Positions 5,147-60,067 of a DNA stretch of 64,000 nt are shown here, piece after piece. How positions within the stretch are numbered: position 1 is the stretch's first letter; each line of letters starts with the position of its first letter. Under the pieces are notes generated by a model. The model was not told the origin of the DNA. It searched no databases and saw nothing but the letters and a program-made list of their open reading frames with translations. Made by a program: the position numbers and the translations under genes. Origin of the DNA: Klebsiella pneumoniae (lineage in GTDB: Bacteria; Desulfobacterota; Binatia; UBA12015); contig CAMBZJ010000001.1 of assembly GCA_945872365.1 (NCBI GenBank), positions 62,001 through 126,000 on the forward strand, given 5' to 3'.

Positions 5147-5706
5147 AGTTCCTGCCCACCGAACTCGACGGTGTGATCGTCGTCGAGCCCGACGTCTGGC
5201 GCGATCCCCGGGGGTTCTTTCTCGAGACCTACCGGGCCGATCGCTGGGCGGAGGGAGGCGTCGACTGCACCTTCGTGCAGGACAACCACTCGCGCTCCGT
5301 ACGCGGCACCCTGCGCGGCCTCCACGCACAGTTGCAGCGCCCGCAGGCGAAGCTCGTGCGCGTGCTCCAGGGATCGATCGTCGACGTGGTCGTCGACATC
5401 CGCCGCGGTTCGCCGACCTTCGCGCGCTGGATCGCGGTCGACCTCTCGTCGGAGAACTTCCGCCAGATCTTCGTGCCCGCCGGCTTCGCCCACGGGCTCT
5501 GCGTCACGAGCGAGACGGCCGAGGTCGAGTACAAGTGTAGCGACCTCTACGATCCGTCCGACGAACTCCGCCTGCTCTGGAGCGATCCGGCCATCGGCGT
5601 CCACTGGCCGATCACCGATCCCATCCTGTCGGACAAGGACCTCGCGGCCCTGCCGCTCGCAGCATGGATGGACCGCCTGCCGAACTGGAACGAACCCGCG
5701 CGATGA
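5143..5706 (+). CDS. rfbC: dTDP-4-dehydrorhamnose 3,5-epimerase
   Basis: Cupin enzyme that epimerises dTDP-4-keto-6-deoxyglucose at C3 and C5. The 187-residue protein shows the family landmarks: [15 protein letters not shown] near the N-terminus, [16 protein letters not shown] with the catalytic His, [15 protein letters not shown], and [12 protein letters not shown] followed by [13 protein letters not shown]. It begins with GTG overlapping the rfbA stop by 4 bases and its stop overlaps the rfbD ATG. No irregularities. Confidence 0.96.
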
Positions 5707-6530
5707 GGATTCTCCTTGCGGGCGGCGCCGGCCAACTCGGGGCCCTCCTGCCCCGGGCGCTCGGCAACCACGAGGTGGTGGTACCGGCACGCGACCGGCT
5801 CGACATCGCGGACCTCGCCGCGGTGCGCGAGGTGGTGCGCGCCACGCGACCGCAACTCGTCGTGAACGCCGCCGCCTACAACCGGGTCGACCAGGCGGAG
5901 AGCGATCGCGAGGCCGCCTATCGCGGGAACGCGCTCGGGCCGCGCAACCTCGCCATCGCCACCGCCGAGGTGGGCGTCCCGGTCCTGCACGTCTCGACCG
6001 ACTATGTCTTCGACGGACGCGCCGGGCGGGCCTACCACGAGTACGATGCGACGGGGCCGCTCTCGGTCTACGGAGCGAGCAAGCTCGCCGGCGAAGAGGC
6101 GATCCGCGGACTGAACGCACGCCACTACGTCGTGCGCACCGCCTGGCTCTATGCCACGGGCCACGCCAACTTCCCGACGACCATGATCGGACTCGGGCGA
6201 CGGGGCCCGGTCCGGGTGGTCGACGATCAGGTCGGCTCACCGACCTATGCGCCCCATCTCGCGAGCGCGATCGCCCGCCTCGTCGAGAGCGCTGCCTTCG
6301 GCACCTGGCACCTCGCCGGTTCCGGCGCCACGAACTGGCACGGCCTCACCCGGCGATTGTTCGCGCGTCTGGGAATCGACTCCGAGGTGCAAGCCGTCAC
6401 GACCGCCGCGTTCCCGCGACCGGCCGCCCGACCGGCTTACTCCGCCCTGGTTTCGATCCAGGACCCGCCGCTGGCACTGCCCCCCTGGGAGGACGGCCTC
6501 GACGAGTTCTGCCGCCGCGTCGATCCCTGA
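5703..6530 (+). CDS. rfbD: dTDP-4-dehydrorhamnose reductase
   Basis: Last enzyme of the pathway; reduces dTDP-4-keto-rhamnose to dTDP-L-rhamnose with NAD(P)H. The 275-residue SDR has [20 protein letters not shown] (nucleotide loop), VVNAAAYNRVDQAE, HVSTDYVFDGRAG, SVYGASKLAGEEA with the Tyr-x3-Lys pair, and DDQVGSPTYAPHLASAI, all RmlD hallmarks. The ATG overlaps the rfbC stop (ATGA). It is the last gene of the cluster. No rhamnosyltransferase is adjacent, so the user of dTDP-rhamnose must be elsewhere. Confidence 0.96.
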   Translation: MRILLAGGAGQLGALLPRALGNHEVVVPARDRLDIADLAAVREVVRATRPQLVVNAAAYNRVDQAESDREAAYRGNALGPRNLAIATAEVGVPVLHVSTDYVFDGRAGRAYHEYDATGPLSVYGASKLAGEEAIRGLNARHYVVRTAWLYATGHANFPTTMIGLGRRGPVRVVDDQVGSPTYAPHLASAIARLVESAAFGTWHLAGSGATNWHGLTRRLFARLGIDSEVQAVTTAAFPRPAARPAYSALVSIQDPPLALPPWEDGLDEFCRRVDP

Positions 6531-6562
6531 AGCGCCTCGTTCCCAGGGCGCCGCCGGGTGCG

Positions 6563-8653
6563 TCAGCGCGGCCGGAAGAACGACCCCGGCAACGTCACGC
6601 TCGAGTAGAACGACCAGTCAGACACGGCGCAGGTTTCCCCCGTACAGCGCTGCGCGACCGAGCACGAGTAGGTGAGCAGCACCGCCGCCGGATCCGGATT
6701 ACCGTCACTCGAGACGAAAGTGCAGAAGACGAATTGCGGATCTCCACCGCCCGGCGCGTAGACGTTGCCGGTGACGGTGCCGTCGTCGGCGTTACGGGCG
6801 ATCGACCAGCGCTGGCCACCGACCGTCTTGCTGACCAGCGTCGCCGCGGAGCCGGGTGTCACCTGGAGCGCGCTCGGCGGATCGGTGGCCGTCGCCGCGA
6901 GGCCCTCGACGGAGGCGCTCGACGCGCCCGCCGTCGCGCCGGAAGAGGTACGGGGCAGGAAGAACGATCCCGGGAGAGTGACGGCGCCCGCCGGGTGCCA
7001 CTGGCCGTTCGGGCAAGTCGGCGAGTCGCAATTCGCCGCGACCTCGCAGGCGAAGTCGATCTGCTCCGCGTAGGGGTCGGGATTCCCGTCGCTGCCGGTG
7101 CGCTTGCACCACAGGAAGGCCGGGTCGCCCCCCGAGGAGGAGAACACGTTGCCGGTCACGGTCGCGACATCGCCGGTCGTCGAAAGTGCCCAGCGTTCCA
7201 CGCCGATGTCCTTGCTGATGAGCGTGTGCTTGCCGTCGGGCGTGATCTGCAGGCCCGAGCCGGGCGAGTCCGACTCGCCGAGCGAGTCCATCGCATCCTT
7301 GATCCTGATGCGCGGGAAGGTGAGTCCGTTGCGGGAATCGAGAAGGGGAAGCCCGGTGCTGCGAAGGGCGGCGAGCGCCTCGTCGACGGAAGCCCGACCC
7401 ATGTGATCGTAGAGCACGGCGAAGGCCCCGGCGACGTGTGGCGTCGCCTGCGAGGTGCCCGAGATCACCGCGTAGCGATCACGGGGAATCGACGAGTAGA
7501 TCTGGTAGCCGGGCGCGAGTAGCGACAGGAAGGGGGCCGCGTCCGAGAACGAAGCGATCGCGTCCTGCTTGGTGACGGCGCCGACGCTGACCACGCCGGA
7601 GAGGCAGCCGGGTGCCGAGAGCTGGTTAGACTTGCCCTCGTTGCCCGCCGCGGCGACGACCGGAATGCCCGCCTGGCGCAGCAACTGGACGATCTCCTCG
7701 CGCGACGGGTCGTCGGCGTCGCACTCCGCCTGCGTGGAATAGAGGCCCCCGCCGAGGCTCATGTTCGCCGCCGCGATCTTGAAGGTCTGGCGCTTCTGGT
7801 AGACGTAGTCGAGCGCGGCCAGCGTGTCGGAGTTGTAGCTGCGCGCGCAGGGATCCTCGCCGTCGCCGCAGGTGTCCTTGCCGGTGAAGCGCGAGAACAC
7901 CTGTATCGCCATGATCGAGGCACCGCGCGCGACCCCGGAGAATTCGGCCCCGCGACCGGCGGCGATGCCCGCGACGTGCGTACCATGGACGCAGGAAGAC
8001 GAAGCCCAGCCGCAGGGCGCAGCCGCCCCCGGGCCGGTCTGCGTCCGCGATCCGTTCGGGCAACTACCGTTGCCGGAGAAGCACACCTCGTCCACCACCT
8101 TGCCGAGCAGGAACGGGTGGGCGGCGTCGATCCCCGTGTCGAGCACGGCGATGGTCCATCCGGTGCCGTCGGCACCGGCCTCCCAGGCCAGATCGGCCTG
8201 AACCATCGGGGCGCTCTCGGCGAGCATCGGCTTTTCGAGACGGTCCTCGACGATGGCGGCGACTCCCTGCGAGAGGGCGAGTGCCTCGAGCGCGTCGCGC
8301 GACACCTCCATCGCCACGATCGGAACGGACGGGAATTCGCGTTCGAGAGACCAGCGACGACCGGCGAGATCCCGCTCGATCGATCTCCGGGCCGGCGCGA
8401 CGGCCGAATCGCCGTCGGTGAAAGGCACGGCTTGGCCGTCGGAATTCCCCGCGGTGCGCAACTGCACGAGCACGCGCACCGAGCCGCGCGCCTGTGCCTT
8501 CGCCCGAAGGCCACCGCCCACGATCGGCGTGAGAGTGCCCGCGCTGGCAAGCGCCGGCCACAGGGCCACCGCGGCCAGCAACGCGGCGACCACGACGGGG
8601 CGCTTCACCGGGTGGGATTCCCGCGCGAAGAGGTCACCTGCCTTGCGCCGCAT
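6563..8653 (-). CDS. secreted subtilisin-like serine protease (S8) with two C-terminal repeat domains
   Basis: A 696-residue exported protease. A hydrophobic signal segment lies at ~17-38 (VVVAALLAAVALWPALASAG), followed by an inhibitor-like propeptide to ~150. The catalytic triad is seen as Asp172 (AVLDTGID), His223 (CVHGTHVAG) and Ser401 (SGTSQATPHVAG), with the oxyanion Asn338 in AAAGNEG. From ~468 there are two copies of a ~100-residue module, each starting LQ(I/V)TP, containing TVTGNV and SDGNPDP, with paired cysteines, and ending VTLPGSFF-PR. GGAAGG-type Shine-Dalgarno bases precede the chosen ATG. Disulphides in the modules would fit oxidation by the DsbA-like protein encoded upstream. 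The substrate is unknown. Confidence 0.93.
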   Translation of the reverse strand: MRRKAGDLFARESHPVKRPVVVAALLAAVALWPALASAGTLTPIVGGGLRAKAQARGSVRVLVQLRTAGNSDGQAVPFTDGDSAVAPARRSIERDLAGRRWSLEREFPSVPIVAMEVSRDALEALALSQGVAAIVEDRLEKPMLAESAPMVQADLAWEAGADGTGWTIAVLDTGIDAAHPFLLGKVVDEVCFSGNGSCPNGSRTQTGPGAAAPCGWASSSCVHGTHVAGIAAGRGAEFSGVARGASIMAIQVFSRFTGKDTCGDGEDPCARSYNSDTLAALDYVYQKRQTFKIAAANMSLGGGLYSTQAECDADDPSREEIVQLLRQAGIPVVAAAGNEGKSNQLSAPGCLSGVVSVGAVTKQDAIASFSDAAPFLSLLAPGYQIYSSIPRDRYAVISGTSQATPHVAGAFAVLYDHMGRASVDEALAALRSTGLPLLDSRNGLTFPRIRIKDAMDSLGESDSPGSGLQITPDGKHTLISKDIGVERWALSTTGDVATVTGNVFSSSGGDPAFLWCKRTGSDGNPDPYAEQIDFACEVAANCDSPTCPNGQWHPAGAVTLPGSFFLPRTSSGATAGASSASVEGLAATATDPPSALQVTPGSAATLVSKTVGGQRWSIARNADDGTVTGNVYAPGGGDPQFVFCTFVSSDGNPDPAAVLLTYSCSVAQRCTGETCAVSDWSFYSSVTLPGSFFRPR

Positions 8654-52445: not shown

Positions 52446-52835
52446 TCAGACCGGACGAGAGGTCATGGCGAGCCAATCGGCGTAGCCGGCCTCATCGAGT
52501 TCACTGGCGGCCAACGCCAGGGTACGAACGATCGCATCGGCTTCCGTGGCGAGGAATCGTCGCTTGTTCACCTCGAGGAACAGGACGGCCGCCGTGAAGC
52601 CGGTGCGCTTGTTGCCGTCGACGAAGGGGTGGTTCTTCACGATCCCGAACGCGCAGCTGGCGGCCAGTTCGCAGAGTGTTGCGGAGGACTTGTACGCGAA
52701 GAGATTGCCCGGCCGCGCGAGCGCCGATTCGAGCAACCCCAGGTCGCGAACTCCTGCCGAGCCTCCGAACTCCGCGAGCAGACGTTCGTGCACGGCGAGC
52801 ACGACTTCGCGAAGGAGCCACTGCGGCTCCTTCAC
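52446..52835 (-). CDS. doc: Doc-like toxin of a type II toxin-antitoxin system
   Basis: A 129-residue Fic-fold protein of the death-on-curing type. ESALARPGNLFAYK is typical of Doc, and the active-site loop is HPFVDGNKRTGF (His69 to Arg76), matching HPFxxGNKR; the Lys after Asn distinguishes Doc kinases from AMPylating Fic proteins. Doc phosphorylates elongation factor Tu and stops translation. The ATG overlaps the stop of the AbrB-type antitoxin gene upstream (ATGA). The full length and conserved loop suggest it is active. Confidence 0.95.
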   Translation of the reverse strand: MKEPQWLLREVVLAVHERLLAEFGGSAGVRDLGLLESALARPGNLFAYKSSATLCELAASCAFGIVKNHPFVDGNKRTGFTAAVLFLEVNKRRFLATEADAIVRTLALAASELDEAGYADWLAMTSRPV

Positions 52836-53062
52836 TTGGCGAGTTCCCTCAGCGTGTTCCGGTAGCGCCGGATCACGTCCTCGGCCGCCTCCATCTGCCG
52901 GTTGAACTCGGGGCTGGACGGGCTGACGCGCAGGCTGCCGTCGGGGGCCTCGGAGACGCAGACCGTGTCGCCCTCCCCGATCTTGAGGTAGGAGAGCACC
53001 TCCTTGGGGAGGACCACGCCGACCGAGTTCCCGACTTTACGGAGTTTGAGTTCGTGGAGCAT
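52832..53062 (-). CDS. AbrB/MazE-family antitoxin
   Basis: A 76-residue antitoxin. LKLRKVGNSVGVVLPKEVLS, then LKIGEGDTVCVSEAPDG, is the AbrB swapped-hairpin DNA-binding domain; the C-terminal ~30 residues (FNRQMEAAEDVIRRYRNTL) form a helix that would cap the Doc toxin. AbrB-type partners replace Phd in many doc operons. The ATG at 53062 is the only start next to the domain. It probably represses its own promoter; a TATAAC and a palindrome lie 22-43 bp upstream. Confidence 0.92.
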   Translation of the reverse strand: MLHELKLRKVGNSVGVVLPKEVLSYLKIGEGDTVCVSEAPDGSLRVSPSSPEFNRQMEAAEDVIRRYRNTLRELAK

Positions 53063-53083
53063 GAGGCGAACGTACCCACACCT

Positions 53084-53105
53084 GTTATAACTCGCAAGTC
53101 GCGAG
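53084..53105 (-). promoter_or_regulatory. candidate promoter/operator of the doc locus
   Basis: On the minus strand, TATAAC (53089-53084) is a plausible -10 box. Directly upstream is an inverted repeat CTCGC-AAGTC-GCGAG (53091-53105) where a dimeric AbrB-type antitoxin could bind and block RNA polymerase. The -35 is not clear. Nothing else is seen in the 270-bp gap to the Fic gene. Confidence 0.5.
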
Positions 53106-53332
53106 GTGGGCTTGGTTGGCCCCGGGACGGGGACGGGGTTTACAGAGGTCGAGGCCGCCGGGACACGGGTGCCGTGCCTCGACGGCAATCTGCGAATGTC
53201 GGGGAGGTGGGGGGTGGCGTCCAAGGCCACGAAGATATCGCGGCACGCGGAAGGGCCACGAGGCCGAGCCGGCTCATGGGAGGGAAAAGCGCCCCGCGAG
53301 AGCGAATGGGGACATGCCCCGCGACGAATTCT

Positions 53333-54532
53333 TCAGCGACCGGGGGCCTGTGCGCCACCGAGATCGGTGCCGACGCGGAGTCGATCGAGGTAGCCCCGGT
53401 ACACGAAGGAGCGGTCGCGCCTCTTGCCGGTCGTCTCGACGAGAACGCCCGCGGCCACGAGCAGCTCGATCGCCCGCCCTGCGGTGGGCTTGGTCGTCTC
53501 CACGAGCTTCATCACCGATGCGACGGTCACGACGGGGTGGCGCGGCAAGAGCTCGAAGAGGCGCAGCGCAACGACCGACATCCCTTCGTGCGCGAGCACG
53601 TGCGCGCGATCCGCGGCCACCAGCGCGAACAGATCCCGCGCTGAGGCGACTGCTTCGTCGGCGATCGTCCCGACCCCATCGAGGAAGAAGTCGAGCCAGC
53701 CCTCCCAGTCGCCATCGACTCGGACGGCGTTGAGCCGACGGTAGTAGTCCTCGCGATGCCGCTTGAAGAAGAGGCTCAGGTAGAGGAGCGGCTTGGTCAG
53801 CAGCTTCCAGTGCTCGAGCAGCAGCGTCACGAGCAGGCGTCCGATGCGGCCGTTGCCGTCGAGGTAGGGGTGGATGGTCTCGAACTGTACGTGCAGGAGT
53901 CCGGCACGCACGAGCGGCGGCAGAGAGTCGTCTGCGTGCAGGTACTTCTCGAACGCGCCGAGCACCTCGCCCAGCACCTGCGGAGGTGGCGGCACGTACG
54001 CGGCGTTGCCGGGACGGCTTCCGCCGATCCAGTTCTGGCTGCGACGCACCTCGCCCGGAAGCTTCTCGGCGCCGCGCACGCCGCGCATGAGGCGCGAGTG
54101 TGTCTCGCTCAACAGGCGCATCGAGAGCGGCAGGCCCTTCGGGGTGGCAAGCTGCGCGCGCGCGTAGGCGAGCGCATCGAGGTAGTTGCACACCTCCTCG
54201 ACGTCGGCGTTGGGCGCGGCGTTCTGCTCGGCGCCGCCCTGGGCCTCGAACGTGAGGAGGTCGACGAGGGTCGCCTGTGTTCCCTCGATCTGCGACGAGA
54301 GTACGGCTTCCTTGCGGACGAACGCGTAGATGAACCAGTCGAGCGAGGGGACCATCTCCCCAGCCAGCTCGAGGCGAACGAGCGCCTGCTCCGCCGCACG
54401 AAGGCGCTCGGCCAGGGCGGCGTCGACGACGACGGGCGGATCCACGGGTGGCAGCGCGTGCGGGACAAAGGCCGCGACCTCCTCCCCACCCACGGTGCTC
54501 CGCTCGTATCGTCCGGTCGCTCGCTTTGGCAT
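53333..54532 (-). CDS. Fic family protein (AMPylator type, N-terminal inhibitory motif)
   Basis: A 399-residue protein. An N-terminal DUF4172-like region contains SSQIEGT at residues 79-85, fitting the (S/T)xxxE(G/N) auto-inhibitory motif before the Fic domain (class II). The Fic core has the active loop HPYLDGNGRIGRLL with catalytic His221. The C-terminal ~90 residues form a winged helix (HPVVTVASVMKLVETTKPTAG...). Such proteins transfer AMP to target proteins and are regulated by the inhibitory Glu. The start ATG at 54532 gives the complete inhibitory region. No adjacent antitoxin gene, consistent with class II. Confidence 0.94.
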   Translation of the reverse strand: MPKRATGRYERSTVGGEEVAAFVPHALPPVDPPVVVDAALAERLRAAEQALVRLELAGEMVPSLDWFIYAFVRKEAVLSSQIEGTQATLVDLLTFEAQGGAEQNAAPNADVEEVCNYLDALAYARAQLATPKGLPLSMRLLSETHSRLMRGVRGAEKLPGEVRRSQNWIGGSRPGNAAYVPPPPQVLGEVLGAFEKYLHADDSLPPLVRAGLLHVQFETIHPYLDGNGRIGRLLVTLLLEHWKLLTKPLLYLSLFFKRHREDYYRRLNAVRVDGDWEGWLDFFLDGVGTIADEAVASARDLFALVAADRAHVLAHEGMSVVALRLFELLPRHPVVTVASVMKLVETTKPTAGRAIELLVAAGVLVETTGKRRDRSFVYRGYLDRLRVGTDLGGAQAPGR

Positions 54533-54932
54533 GTCGGCTCCGCTCGGAACGCCCGCTTAGCTTGGCGCGCAGGCTGGGAAAGCCGGCGTGACTAGGGTGG
54601 TGCGCTCGAAACGAATCCTTTACCAGTGTCCATCGTTAGTCAAGTGCGCGTTACTAGCGATGCCGAGGCCGGCCGACGCGGAGGTCGCGCCGGAGGTACG
54701 CCGTGACGCGCTGGTTAACTGCATTACGGCCTGCTCACCTGCCGTTCGTGTGGCGGCCGCCTCCGCCTCGTCGCGACGATCCAGGCCCCTGCCATGGTAC
54801 TGCGCTGAAACGCGACGAAACGCTGCGGTTCATCGCGCCACCGCGTCGCCCCGGATCCGCCTCGTCCCACGTGGTGATCGTCCGGGCACGGGGGTTGCTC
54901 CCCCGGACGGCCATGGTGCTATCCTTCGGCTC
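54533..54932. other. 400-bp stretch without a recognisable gene
   Basis: Separates the divergent Fic and Uma2-type genes. The bases around 54590-54730 are less GC-rich than the surroundings, but no domain, tRNA or convincing promoter was found. Confidence 0.5.
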
Positions 54933-55499
54933 GTGTCGAGCCCCAAGCGACGCGCCACGTACGAGGATCTGATGGAGGTCCCCGACACGAAGGTCGCCGA
55001 GATCATCGACGGCCAACTGATCGTCAGCCCGCGGCCGGCGAGCCCGCATGCGTACGCGGCCACAGTGCTGGGGAGCGACGTGGCCGGATCCTTCCATGGC
55101 CCACCGGGGCCGCCGCCCGCTCCCGGAGGCTGGTGGATCCTTCTCGAGCCGGAACTCCACCTGGGGAACGACGTCCTCGTCCCCGATGGGGCGGGCTGGC
55201 GTCGCGAGCGACTGCCGGTATTCCCGAAGGGCGCCTTTTTCACGGCGGCACCCGACTGGGTCTGCGAGATCGTCTCGCCGTCGACGGGACGCACCGACCG
55301 CAGCGCCAAGATGCGCCTCTATGCCGCCGCCGGGATCGGCCACCTCTGGATGGTCGATCCCGAACTGGAAACCCTCGAGGTCTACGGCCTCGAGGCCGGA
55401 CGCTGGGTCGTTCTCGACGTCCAGGCGGGCGACGCGGTAACTCGCGCCGCGCCCTTCGACGCCGTCGACCTGCGCCTCGGCCGCTGGTGGGTTCCATGA
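54933..55499 (+). CDS. Uma2 family (DUF820) putative restriction-endonuclease-like protein
   Basis: A 188-residue protein. RRATYEDLMEVPDTKVAEII is the typical start with DGQLIVSPRPASPHA, then ELHLGNDVLVPDGAGWR (metal-site Asp), WVCEIVSPSTGRTDRSAKMR (Glu...Lys, the PD-(D/E)xK core) and LYAAAGIGHLWMVDPE. These proteins are common in accessory regions and have no settled biological role. The GTG start at 54933 fits the family N-terminus; no strong ribosome-binding site is seen. Confidence 0.9.
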   Translation: MSSPKRRATYEDLMEVPDTKVAEIIDGQLIVSPRPASPHAYAATVLGSDVAGSFHGPPGPPPAPGGWWILLEPELHLGNDVLVPDGAGWRRERLPVFPKGAFFTAAPDWVCEIVSPSTGRTDRSAKMRLYAAAGIGHLWMVDPELETLEVYGLEAGRWVVLDVQAGDAVTRAAPFDAVDLRLGRWWVP

Positions 55500-55960: not shown

Positions 55961-56644
55961 CTACCTCGCCGCCGTCAGGTCGTTCGTGACCAGCGCCCTC
56001 TTCGACCAGTGCTCGCCGATCCCCTGCACGAACTCCGGGCGGACGAGCTTGGCGCGATCGACCAGCCGCCCCGCGGACTCGACGCGGACGTAGAGTCCTT
56101 CCGCAGGCCCGTCGGTGAGTTTCGAGGCTCCGAGCAGCTTCCGCAGTCCGGCCAGGTCGAACCGGCCGCGGCCGAGCTCCGGCACGACCGACACGCCGAT
56201 CCGACCCGCCAACTCGTTCCTCCGGTCGACGCTCCAGAACTCCTCTACCTCCCGGTCGAACACGTCGAAGGCGAGAAACCAGTCAGGCAGCCGCGTGTAG
56301 CGCACGCTGTGAACCGCGTGGCACCACTCGCCGAACAGGACCAGGTGCGGGGCGAGCACCGCCTCGAGATCGTGGCGCTTCGTCGAGAGCCACCGTCGTA
56401 GAGGTCGCCACTGCCCCTGCAGGTCTTCGAGGTCGAGGTAGCTCCCGCGGTTCTGTGCCTGCAGCGCGCCCTCGCCGTCGACGGAGAACCCGAGGTTCGC
56501 CCCGTCCACCTTCTCCTCCACGACGACGTCCTGCGCCAGCAGCGCCCGTACCGACTCCTCGGGAAGCACCTTGTCGTCGCGCGGCACCCCGGCCCCGAGC
56601 CAGGCGAGGTGCGGGGTGTGGGGGAACCGGAAGAACTCGCTCAT
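55961..56644 (-). CDS. small RNA ligase family protein
   Basis: A 227-residue nucleotidyltransferase with the RNA-ligase motifs in order: motif I VVEEKVDGANLGF (Lys45 would carry AMP), motif III-like LVLFGEWCHAVHSV, IIIa WFLAFDVFD, motif IV AEGLYVRVES, and motif V DRAKLVRPEFVQ. It fits the short stand-alone ligase group that joins or repairs RNA ends using ATP. The ATG at 56644 is chosen because the fold starts there; the frame continues upstream without a stop into the broken ATPase gene. Role unknown; an RNA-repair or defence function is inference from the neighbour. Confidence 0.88.
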   Translation of the reverse strand: MSEFFRFPHTPHLAWLGAGVPRDDKVLPEESVRALLAQDVVVEEKVDGANLGFSVDGEGALQAQNRGSYLDLEDLQGQWRPLRRWLSTKRHDLEAVLAPHLVLFGEWCHAVHSVRYTRLPDWFLAFDVFDREVEEFWSVDRRNELAGRIGVSVVPELGRGRFDLAGLRKLLGASKLTDGPAEGLYVRVESAGRLVDRAKLVRPEFVQGIGEHWSKRALVTNDLTAAR

Positions 56645-57612
56645 CCCGGATCCACCTGCGCCCGCAACCAGACATCGAGGACCTACCCCCTGACCGGGTT
56701 GGCCAGCACGCTCGATCATCTTGCGCGTCTGTCGCTCGGTCTCGCCGATGGCGTCGCCGAAGAAGTGCTTCGGCCAGTTGCGGACGCGGCCGGAGGGATC
56801 GACCTCGAGGCGTGTCAGCTGGGGGGCCCCGTGCTCGTCGCGATCCACGAAGTAGAGCCGGCAGTCCTCGCTCGCGAACTTCTCCTCCGCGATCATCGTC
56901 TGCAGGCGCCGGAACAGGTGCTCCGAGTGCGTCTCCACCAGGAACTGCACCTTCCGCTCGCGCGCGACCTCGACCATGAGCTCGGCGAGCCCGCCCTGGG
57001 CTCGCGGGTGCAGGTGGATCTCCGGCTGCTCGGCGACGATGGTCGTCCCCGGCTTCACGAAGTGGGCCAGCACGAGCATCGGGAGCACCTGGGAGATCCC
57101 GAAGCCGACGTCCATGATGTTGGCTCGCCGGGAACCGCGGATGACGATGAGTTCGTAGTGCCTCGACTTACCCTGGCGCTCCAGCACCAATTGGTCGGCC
57201 ACCCCGAGTCGCTTGAGCCAGTCCGACACGCGGTCCACGAGCCATTGGGCACCGCCTTCCTTGCCCGGGCGCTGTTTCTTCTTGATGTCGTTGCTCGCGA
57301 GCAAGGCGTGGACGGCCGTCTCGCCGCGCTTTCCGAGGTCGCCGGGCTCGACCCCGCTCCACAGGTAGCGTGGATGACCGACTCGGCGGTGCCGACGTCG
57401 ACGAGGTCCACGGCCTGGCCGCCGAGGTTCAGGTCGAGGGTTCGGTCCGGGCTGTCGAAGGTCTGCTTCAGGAGGAGCGGCACCTGCAGAATCGAAGTCT
57501 TGCCGGCGGAGTTCGGGCCGAGAAAGAGTGTGATCGGAGCGAGTTCGATGCCGGGAGCCCAGAGCTGCTCGCCCCACGCTTTGAAGTTCTTGATACGCAG
57601 GTTGGTCAGCAT
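56645..57612 (-). pseudogene. AAA ATPase (DUF3696-like), internally deleted and frameshifted
   Basis: A good ribosome-binding site (GGGAGG) and ATG at 57612 start LTNLRIKNFKAWGEQLW, followed by ITLFLGPNSAGKTSILQ (Walker A) and LGGQAVDLVDVGTAESVIH. The frame then changes near 57370 and the match resumes far downstream in the family with YLWSGVEPGDLGKRGETAVH, GFGISQVLPMLVL (signature-like), VAEQPEIHLHPRAQG (Walker B) and FLVETHSEHLFRRLQTM. Some 150-200 codons of the usual middle are missing. The second frame has no stop before the RNA ligase. Non-functional as it stands; a SMC/OLD-like ATPase paired with a ligase in its intact form. Confidence 0.8.
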
Positions 57613-57811
57613 TGCCGTGCCTCCCGCTCGCGCGGCCATGGACCGGGTGGCACCTTGCCGCCCGGCCAGCCGCGAAAGATGTACCCGAGGCCGGAGCGGC
57701 GGACCAGCCGAGCGAACCGGTCTCCTCGATTGTTCGCTTCCCCATGTGTTCCCTCGCATGACCGCACTCCCCGACGGTTGACGCCCCCACCCCCGTCCGC
57801 TTGAACCCTTC

Positions 57812-59815
<2,004 letters not shown>

Positions 59816-59930: not shown

Positions 59931-59978
59931 CTCGCCGAGCGCGTACCGGCCGACGTGCTGGCGATGCTCGAGGGCTCG
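59931..59978. repeat. duplicate of a recQ HRDC-coding segment
   Basis: 48 bp here match 59690-59737 inside recQ at about 85% (CTCGCCGAGCGCGT start, common CGATGCT). In frame it reads [16 protein letters not shown] versus [16 protein letters not shown]. It lies 115 bp past the recQ stop and has no start, so it is a decayed partial duplication. Confidence 0.8.
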
Positions 59979-60067
59979 AGCGAGGGCCGGCGCTGGCGAC
60001 CGGAAGCGGCGAGCCGTCGGCGCCGCCTTCGCAACGCCGACGCCTCGCCTCCGTTCTCGGACGACGG

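Follow-up and report, generated by a model that had tools for sequence, protein, structure and literature searches.

The window, a stretch of 64,000 nucleotides, carries a three-gene operon copy that was broken recently; in such an operon, an HEC-03 ATPase gene is followed by a gene for a probable PIN-type nuclease and by an RNA ligase gene. Four parts of this statement we hold to be certain or very nearly so: the ligase is intact, the ATPase is broken, the middle gene has been deleted by comparison with the closest intact relative, and the trio recurs in other genomes. If the assignment is right, an RNA-repair gene joins a candidate system that is listed with two genes, and the uncharacterized middle gene of HEC-03 gains a predicted fold.

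The locus in the window and its intact relative

The original prediction had described a complete small RNA ligase beside a DUF3696-like ATPase that has lost its middle, and both descriptions hold (Table 1). PF09414 matches the 227-aa ligase at E 2.8e-32 (112.7 bits against a curated cut-off of 27), and the window's genome carries one copy of this gene. The ATPase survives as two HEC-03B pieces in different frames. The N-terminal piece, read from the ATG at 57612, matches profile positions 1-76 (E 1.9e-17), and the C-terminal piece matches positions 232-446 (E 2.5e-63) as well as DUF3696 (E 1.1e-9). The ATPase and ligase had been said to share a frame; this is true of the C-terminal piece, which a single open frame (55961-59383) spans together with the ligase, but not of the N-terminal piece. 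The shared frame is itself, judging from the alignment, a by-product of two deletions.

Table 1. Coordinates of the operon remnant in the window
Feature	Position	Strand	Basis or remark
RNA ligase gene, intact, 227 aa	55961-56644	-	PF09414, Rnl2/Rnl5-like catalytic core
Ligase coding part (stop codon 55961-55963)	55964-56644	-	227 aa
3'-end remnant of the middle (predicted PIN nuclease) gene	56641-56684	-	DNA alignment with L014
ATPase C-terminal piece, SMC/OLD-like: Walker B side and DUF3696	56682-57367	-	HEC-03B, DUF3696, L014 alignment
ATPase N-terminal piece: start codon and Walker A (GPNSAGKT)	57368-57612	-	HEC-03B, L014 alignment
Block common to the window and L014	55932-57720	-	blastn

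The closest relative, L014 (contig C146 of genome G709), belongs to the same genus as the window's genome and has a ligase that is ~90% identical. In L014 the ATPase, the middle gene and the ligase are all present and tightly packed, and two more genomes of the same family (L172 and L173) also carry intact trios. At the DNA level, the N-terminal ATPase piece is 92% identical to L014, and the C-terminal piece is 91% identical to its positions 1361-2046. By this comparison, ~395 bp are missing inside the window ATPase, at the junction 57367/57368, and one extra base causes a frameshift. A second deletion, which the original prediction had missed and which removed an entire gene, the middle one of the trio, took ~454 bp at about 56683, comprising the end of the ATPase gene and nearly all of the PIN gene; its junction shows a 3-bp microhomology, AGG. 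It is improbable that these breaks are assembly artefacts and that the real genome holds an intact trio. The assembly does consist of 57 contigs, and dN/dS gives no sign of relaxed constraint, but there are two separate, clean junctions, one of them with microhomology, and no PIN fragment lies elsewhere in the genome.

Of the two components of HEC-03, HEC-03B is thus found in the window as two pieces, and HEC-03A is absent from its place next to the ATPase, from the window and from the whole genome, where a genome search returned no PIN match elsewhere. The window copy is therefore a remnant of HEC-03, not a complete member, and cannot function as the full system. An Rfam scan of the window at gathering scores gave no match.

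Against L014, the ligase has a dN/dS of 0.16 and the two ATPase pieces have 0.15 and 0.07; such low values in remnants indicate that gene loss was recent. The proposal that the system decayed because it was costly while the ligase was kept is not borne out: the ATPase remnants are as constrained as the ligase and, with deletions this recent, the values say little about selection. We likewise rejected selective retention of the ligase, which has no dN/dS support and for which other loci point both ways, L026 and L197 having the ligase alone intact and L103 and L107 showing the opposite.

Outside the block shared with L014 the neighbourhoods differ, so the two congeners carry the operon at different places. 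A 50-bp segment of the window beyond this block (54799-54848), single-copy in the window's genome, is 94% identical to the extreme end of the L014 contig. The Doc, Fic and Uma2 neighbours named in the original prediction are present: at 52446-53230 a Fic/Doc gene comes right after a MazE/AbrB-type antitoxin gene, likely forming a toxin-antitoxin pair, and a second Fic gene (53333-54532) and a Uma2 gene (54588-55499) are also there. On the other side, just past recQ, lies a partial duplication, a 58-bp direct repeat of 83% identity (59690-59747 and 59931-59988) that stems from the end of the HRDC region of recQ.

Recurrence and surroundings of the operon

What had been taken for an unnamed pair of ATPase and ligase does recur in many genomes, but as a three-gene operon whose ATPase and PIN genes already bear the candidate name HEC-03. 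The suggestion to look for a third conserved gene was sound, since one exists between ATPase and ligase and encodes a predicted PIN-type nuclease. In relatives from several phyla, the ATPase, a middle protein of ~165 aa and the ligase form one tight operon. Ligase relatives at about 44-54% identity occur within the window's phylum and also on Azotobacter, Aeromonas, Tistrella and Rhodococcus plasmids; there the ligase comes after an ATPase of the DUF3696 or AAA family and a hypothetical protein of ~175 aa.

A GTDB contig scan seeded with nine ligases yielded 80 loci. Among the 72 with at least 2 kb of upstream sequence, 63 have the order ATPase-PIN-ligase, four have PIN and ligase without the ATPase, and five have neither gene. 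The ATPase-PIN gap is at most 20 bp in 65 of 66 cases and the PIN-ligase gap at most 50 bp in 72 of 73, with ATGA-type overlaps at 41 ATPase-PIN and 39 PIN-ligase junctions. That the genes are chance neighbours is ruled out by the recurrence of this order, with overlapping genes, across several phyla.

Because the 80-locus set was seeded with the ligase, we also sampled by the middle gene, using four phylum samples with 1,145 genomes in all. The gene was found in 15 of 398 Pseudomonadota, in 7 of 297 genomes of the window's phylum and, for the phyla to which a planctomycete and a myxobacterium belong, in 3 of 255 and 12 of 195 genomes, respectively. All 37 of these PIN genes adjoin an ATPase, a few with broken frames, and 26 of the 37 adjoin a ligase; three of the 37 come from the centre genomes themselves, already known as trios. 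Counted from the ligase side, in the two samples that were also searched by ligase, every close-family ligase adjoins a PIN gene (11/11 in Pseudomonadota and 3/3 in the window's phylum with the window excluded, 14/14 together), whereas more distant PF09414 ligases in these samples do not. A partial ligase, L120, stands alone.

As the ligase is missing beside 11 of the 37 PIN genes sampled, it is dispensable, a frequent third gene and not an obligate one. HEC-03 pairs that keep ATPase and PIN with no ligase exist, for example at L103 and L107. In an ATPase tree that includes seven such pairs, five group in a single clade and the other two sit as tips inside clades of trios. Ligase distances track those of PIN and ATPase weakly (Mantel 0.30 for ligase and PIN, against 0.85 for PIN and ATPase), which means that operons exchange the ligase. 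Among the loci we found no protein fusion of PIN and ligase; E. coli genomes gave no match to the Lelliottia trio, and phage records yielded nothing nearer than distant ligase relatives, and no relative of the PIN protein. At L026 (4259-6816) and L197, the ATPase and PIN genes are in several broken frames beside an intact ligase; these two loci seem to represent a single copy, perhaps from a MAG that contains frameshift errors.

As for clustering in defence islands, some copies do lie in defence contexts, with DISARM methylases or a P4-like integrase. A DrmMI-like (DISARM) methylase gene is directly upstream in 9 of the 64 operons with enough upstream sequence, and an HNH gene is downstream in nine loci. 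On the IMG/VR contigs L132 (1-3810) and L133 (862-4669), the trio directly follows a phage integrase, P4-like by our own reading, and on L131 (2101-4690) it lies a few genes from a portal gene that we read as P2-like. Trio copies on Aeromonas plasmids have AbiEii and GASH genes as neighbours. We consider the trio probably to be a defence system.

The PIN-ligase units without ATPase were found in Burkholderiales-type genomes (L040, L045, L051 and L074, about 5450-6690), where they occupy a fixed chromosomal place, divergent from a gene that we read as gspA/ExeA-like. They speak for a direct link between PIN and ligase, and are possibly a chromosomal two-gene cut-and-seal unit.

The ligase and the predicted nuclease

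All residues that are invariant in 47 relatives are present in the window ligase, as follows from the construction of the alignment, and they include the three named residues of the nucleotidyl-transfer motif K45-x-D47-G48. The AlphaFold model (pLDDT 92.4) comes closest to Naegleria Rnl (Z 16.9), T4 Rnl2 (16.4), trypanosome REL1 (15.2) and T4 Rnl1 (14.3). The PF09414 fold and motifs are common to the trio ligase and T4 Rnl2, Naegleria Rnl and REL1. Solved relatives are longer; the trio ligase is a catalytic core of about 225 aa (227 in the window) with no extra domain at either terminus. On this modelling, it is a relative of the Rnl2/Rnl5-type ATP-dependent RNA ligases and not a member of Rnl2 or Rnl5. 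Rnl-type ligases join a 3'-OH to a 5'-phosphate.

The middle protein has no match in Pfam (its PIN families included), in NCBIfam or among PDB sequences, and PADLOC's HEC-03A matches it at E 1e-7 to 1e-33. With its AlphaFold model (pLDDT 95.9), plain Foldseek gave weak matches; VIA-align ranked VapC21 highest (Z 10.4; 2.7 A across 119 residues), followed mostly by PIN proteins. No substitution occurs in 66 sequences at D7, T8, N9, V10, D54, E62, D107, D110 and W134, and D131 is almost invariant. Judged by predicted fold and residue pattern, the middle protein is probably a PIN-type nuclease. It resembles VapC-type PIN toxins in that fold (Z 8 to 10) and in its acidic residues, but differs from them in lacking a Pfam PIN match and in having the ATPase and the ligase as partners instead of a VapB. 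PIN nucleases are metal-dependent and generally leave 3'-OH and 5'-phosphate ends.

Known systems and possible roles of the trio

The ATPase and middle gene correspond to the PADLOC candidate pair HEC-03, in the same gene order: HEC-03B matches the ATPases of the intact relatives at E 1e-92 to 1e-132, and HEC-03A matches the middle protein. The trio departs from this pair in the RNA ligase, which is the third gene in the 26 sampled operons and has no matching model in PADLOC, and in the PIN fold that our modelling assigns to HEC-03A, a protein without description there. We found no paper that joins DUF3696 with an RNA ligase; the literature found names HEC-03 merely in passing and does not extend to the defining HEC work, which might mention the ligase.

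A further comparison is with PARIS, in which a phage protein is sensed by AriA, and tRNA is nicked by AriB to give 3'-OH and 5'-phosphate ends; whether recovery is possible for a cell once a tRNA-cutting immune system has fired is stated to be open for PARIS (PMC12409363). Both systems have an ABC/OLD-like ATPase gene followed by a small nuclease gene, and P4-like elements carry both; antiphage systems, PARIS among them, are known to concentrate in hotspots on P2 and P4 elements (PMC9122126). The middle protein, however, is PIN-like, whereas AriB is a DUF4435/Toprim protein, and the trio adds the RNA ligase. AriA models match the trio ATPase at E 4e-24, but HEC-03B matches it far better. We rejected membership in PARIS, as there is no Toprim partner: the middle gene is without a Pfam match and its model is PIN-like.

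The best explanation that we can offer, tentatively and by analogy, is a PARIS-like, ATPase-gated ribonuclease whose own 3'-OH/5'-phosphate nicks would be resealed by the ligase; we would put it just short of an even call. The SMC/OLD-like ATPase would hold the nuclease in check, as in PARIS, and on sensing infection would release or activate it. The PIN nuclease would then nick RNA, perhaps host tRNA, to give 3'-OH and 5'-phosphate ends, which the co-transcribed ligase, resembling the nick-sealing enzymes Rnl2 and Rnl5, could join without end-healing enzymes. Resealing would limit leaky damage or allow the cell to recover. Here we infer the defence role itself, the gating by the ATPase, the RNA target, the chemistry of the ends and the self-repair. 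That a nuclease and a ligase of matching chemistry share one overlapping operon suggests cutting and resealing. Because pairs without the ligase exist, the ligase cannot be an obligate antidote; a role in tuning or recovery fits better. With ends that are joinable in principle, reversible immunity could be tested by changing one lysine. The idea of nuclease-cut RNA being sealed in a phage-host conflict is shared with tRNA repair by T4 Pnk/Rnl1 against PrrC. The trio ligase differs in that it lies in one operon with the nuclease, instead of being encoded by the opposing phage, and in that no kinase/phosphatase gene is beside it.

A more far-reaching form of this proposal, possible but on balance doubtful, is that of a self-reversing immune operon, in which a ribonuclease would halt translation and a resealing ligase would undo the arrest, the ligase being a recovery module that a few other defence cassettes also use. 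At single loci, the ligase follows PD-T4-4 A and B (L057:3975-6738), PDC-S46 (L077:1453-4419) or MqsR-MqsA-SecB-like genes (L039:2422-4583), so it is perhaps a shared module. These loci also keep alive a rather unlikely alternative, that the ligase mends RNA damaged by phage nucleases or other ribotoxins, as general RNA-repair cargo of defence loci and not as the partner of PIN. The weak co-divergence of ligase and PIN is in keeping with this alternative, but in two unbiased samples all 14 close-family ligases adjoin PIN, the genes overlap, and PIN-ligase units exist without the ATPase.

We give little credence to the trio being outside defence altogether, as a module for RNA maturation or stress that mobile elements carry incidentally. 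PIN proteins and RNA ligases can both serve RNA processing, and the units beside gspA-like genes hold a fixed chromosomal place; against this, the distribution is patchy across phyla (37 of 1,145 genomes), the pair is a PADLOC candidate, and DISARM methylases and satellite integrases are among the neighbours. Very unlikely is a joint effector, in which PIN and ligase would cut and rejoin RNAs into altered, circular or chimeric products and so block translation in phage or host: the coupling of PIN and ligase is tight with and without the ATPase, but pairs without the ligase would have no effector, and we know of no precedent in bacterial immunity.

Two further ligase loci deserve mention. At L134 (3998-4660), a close ligase relative with 43% identity stands alone in an 80-kb IMG/VR viral contig and could be a phage counter-measure. 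On a Deinococcus radiodurans plasmid (L013:5992-8686), a distant PF09414 ligase, a TIGR02452 protein and an AAA ATPase are encoded one after another and a second RNA ligase gene lies close by, making up another RNA-repair-like cluster.
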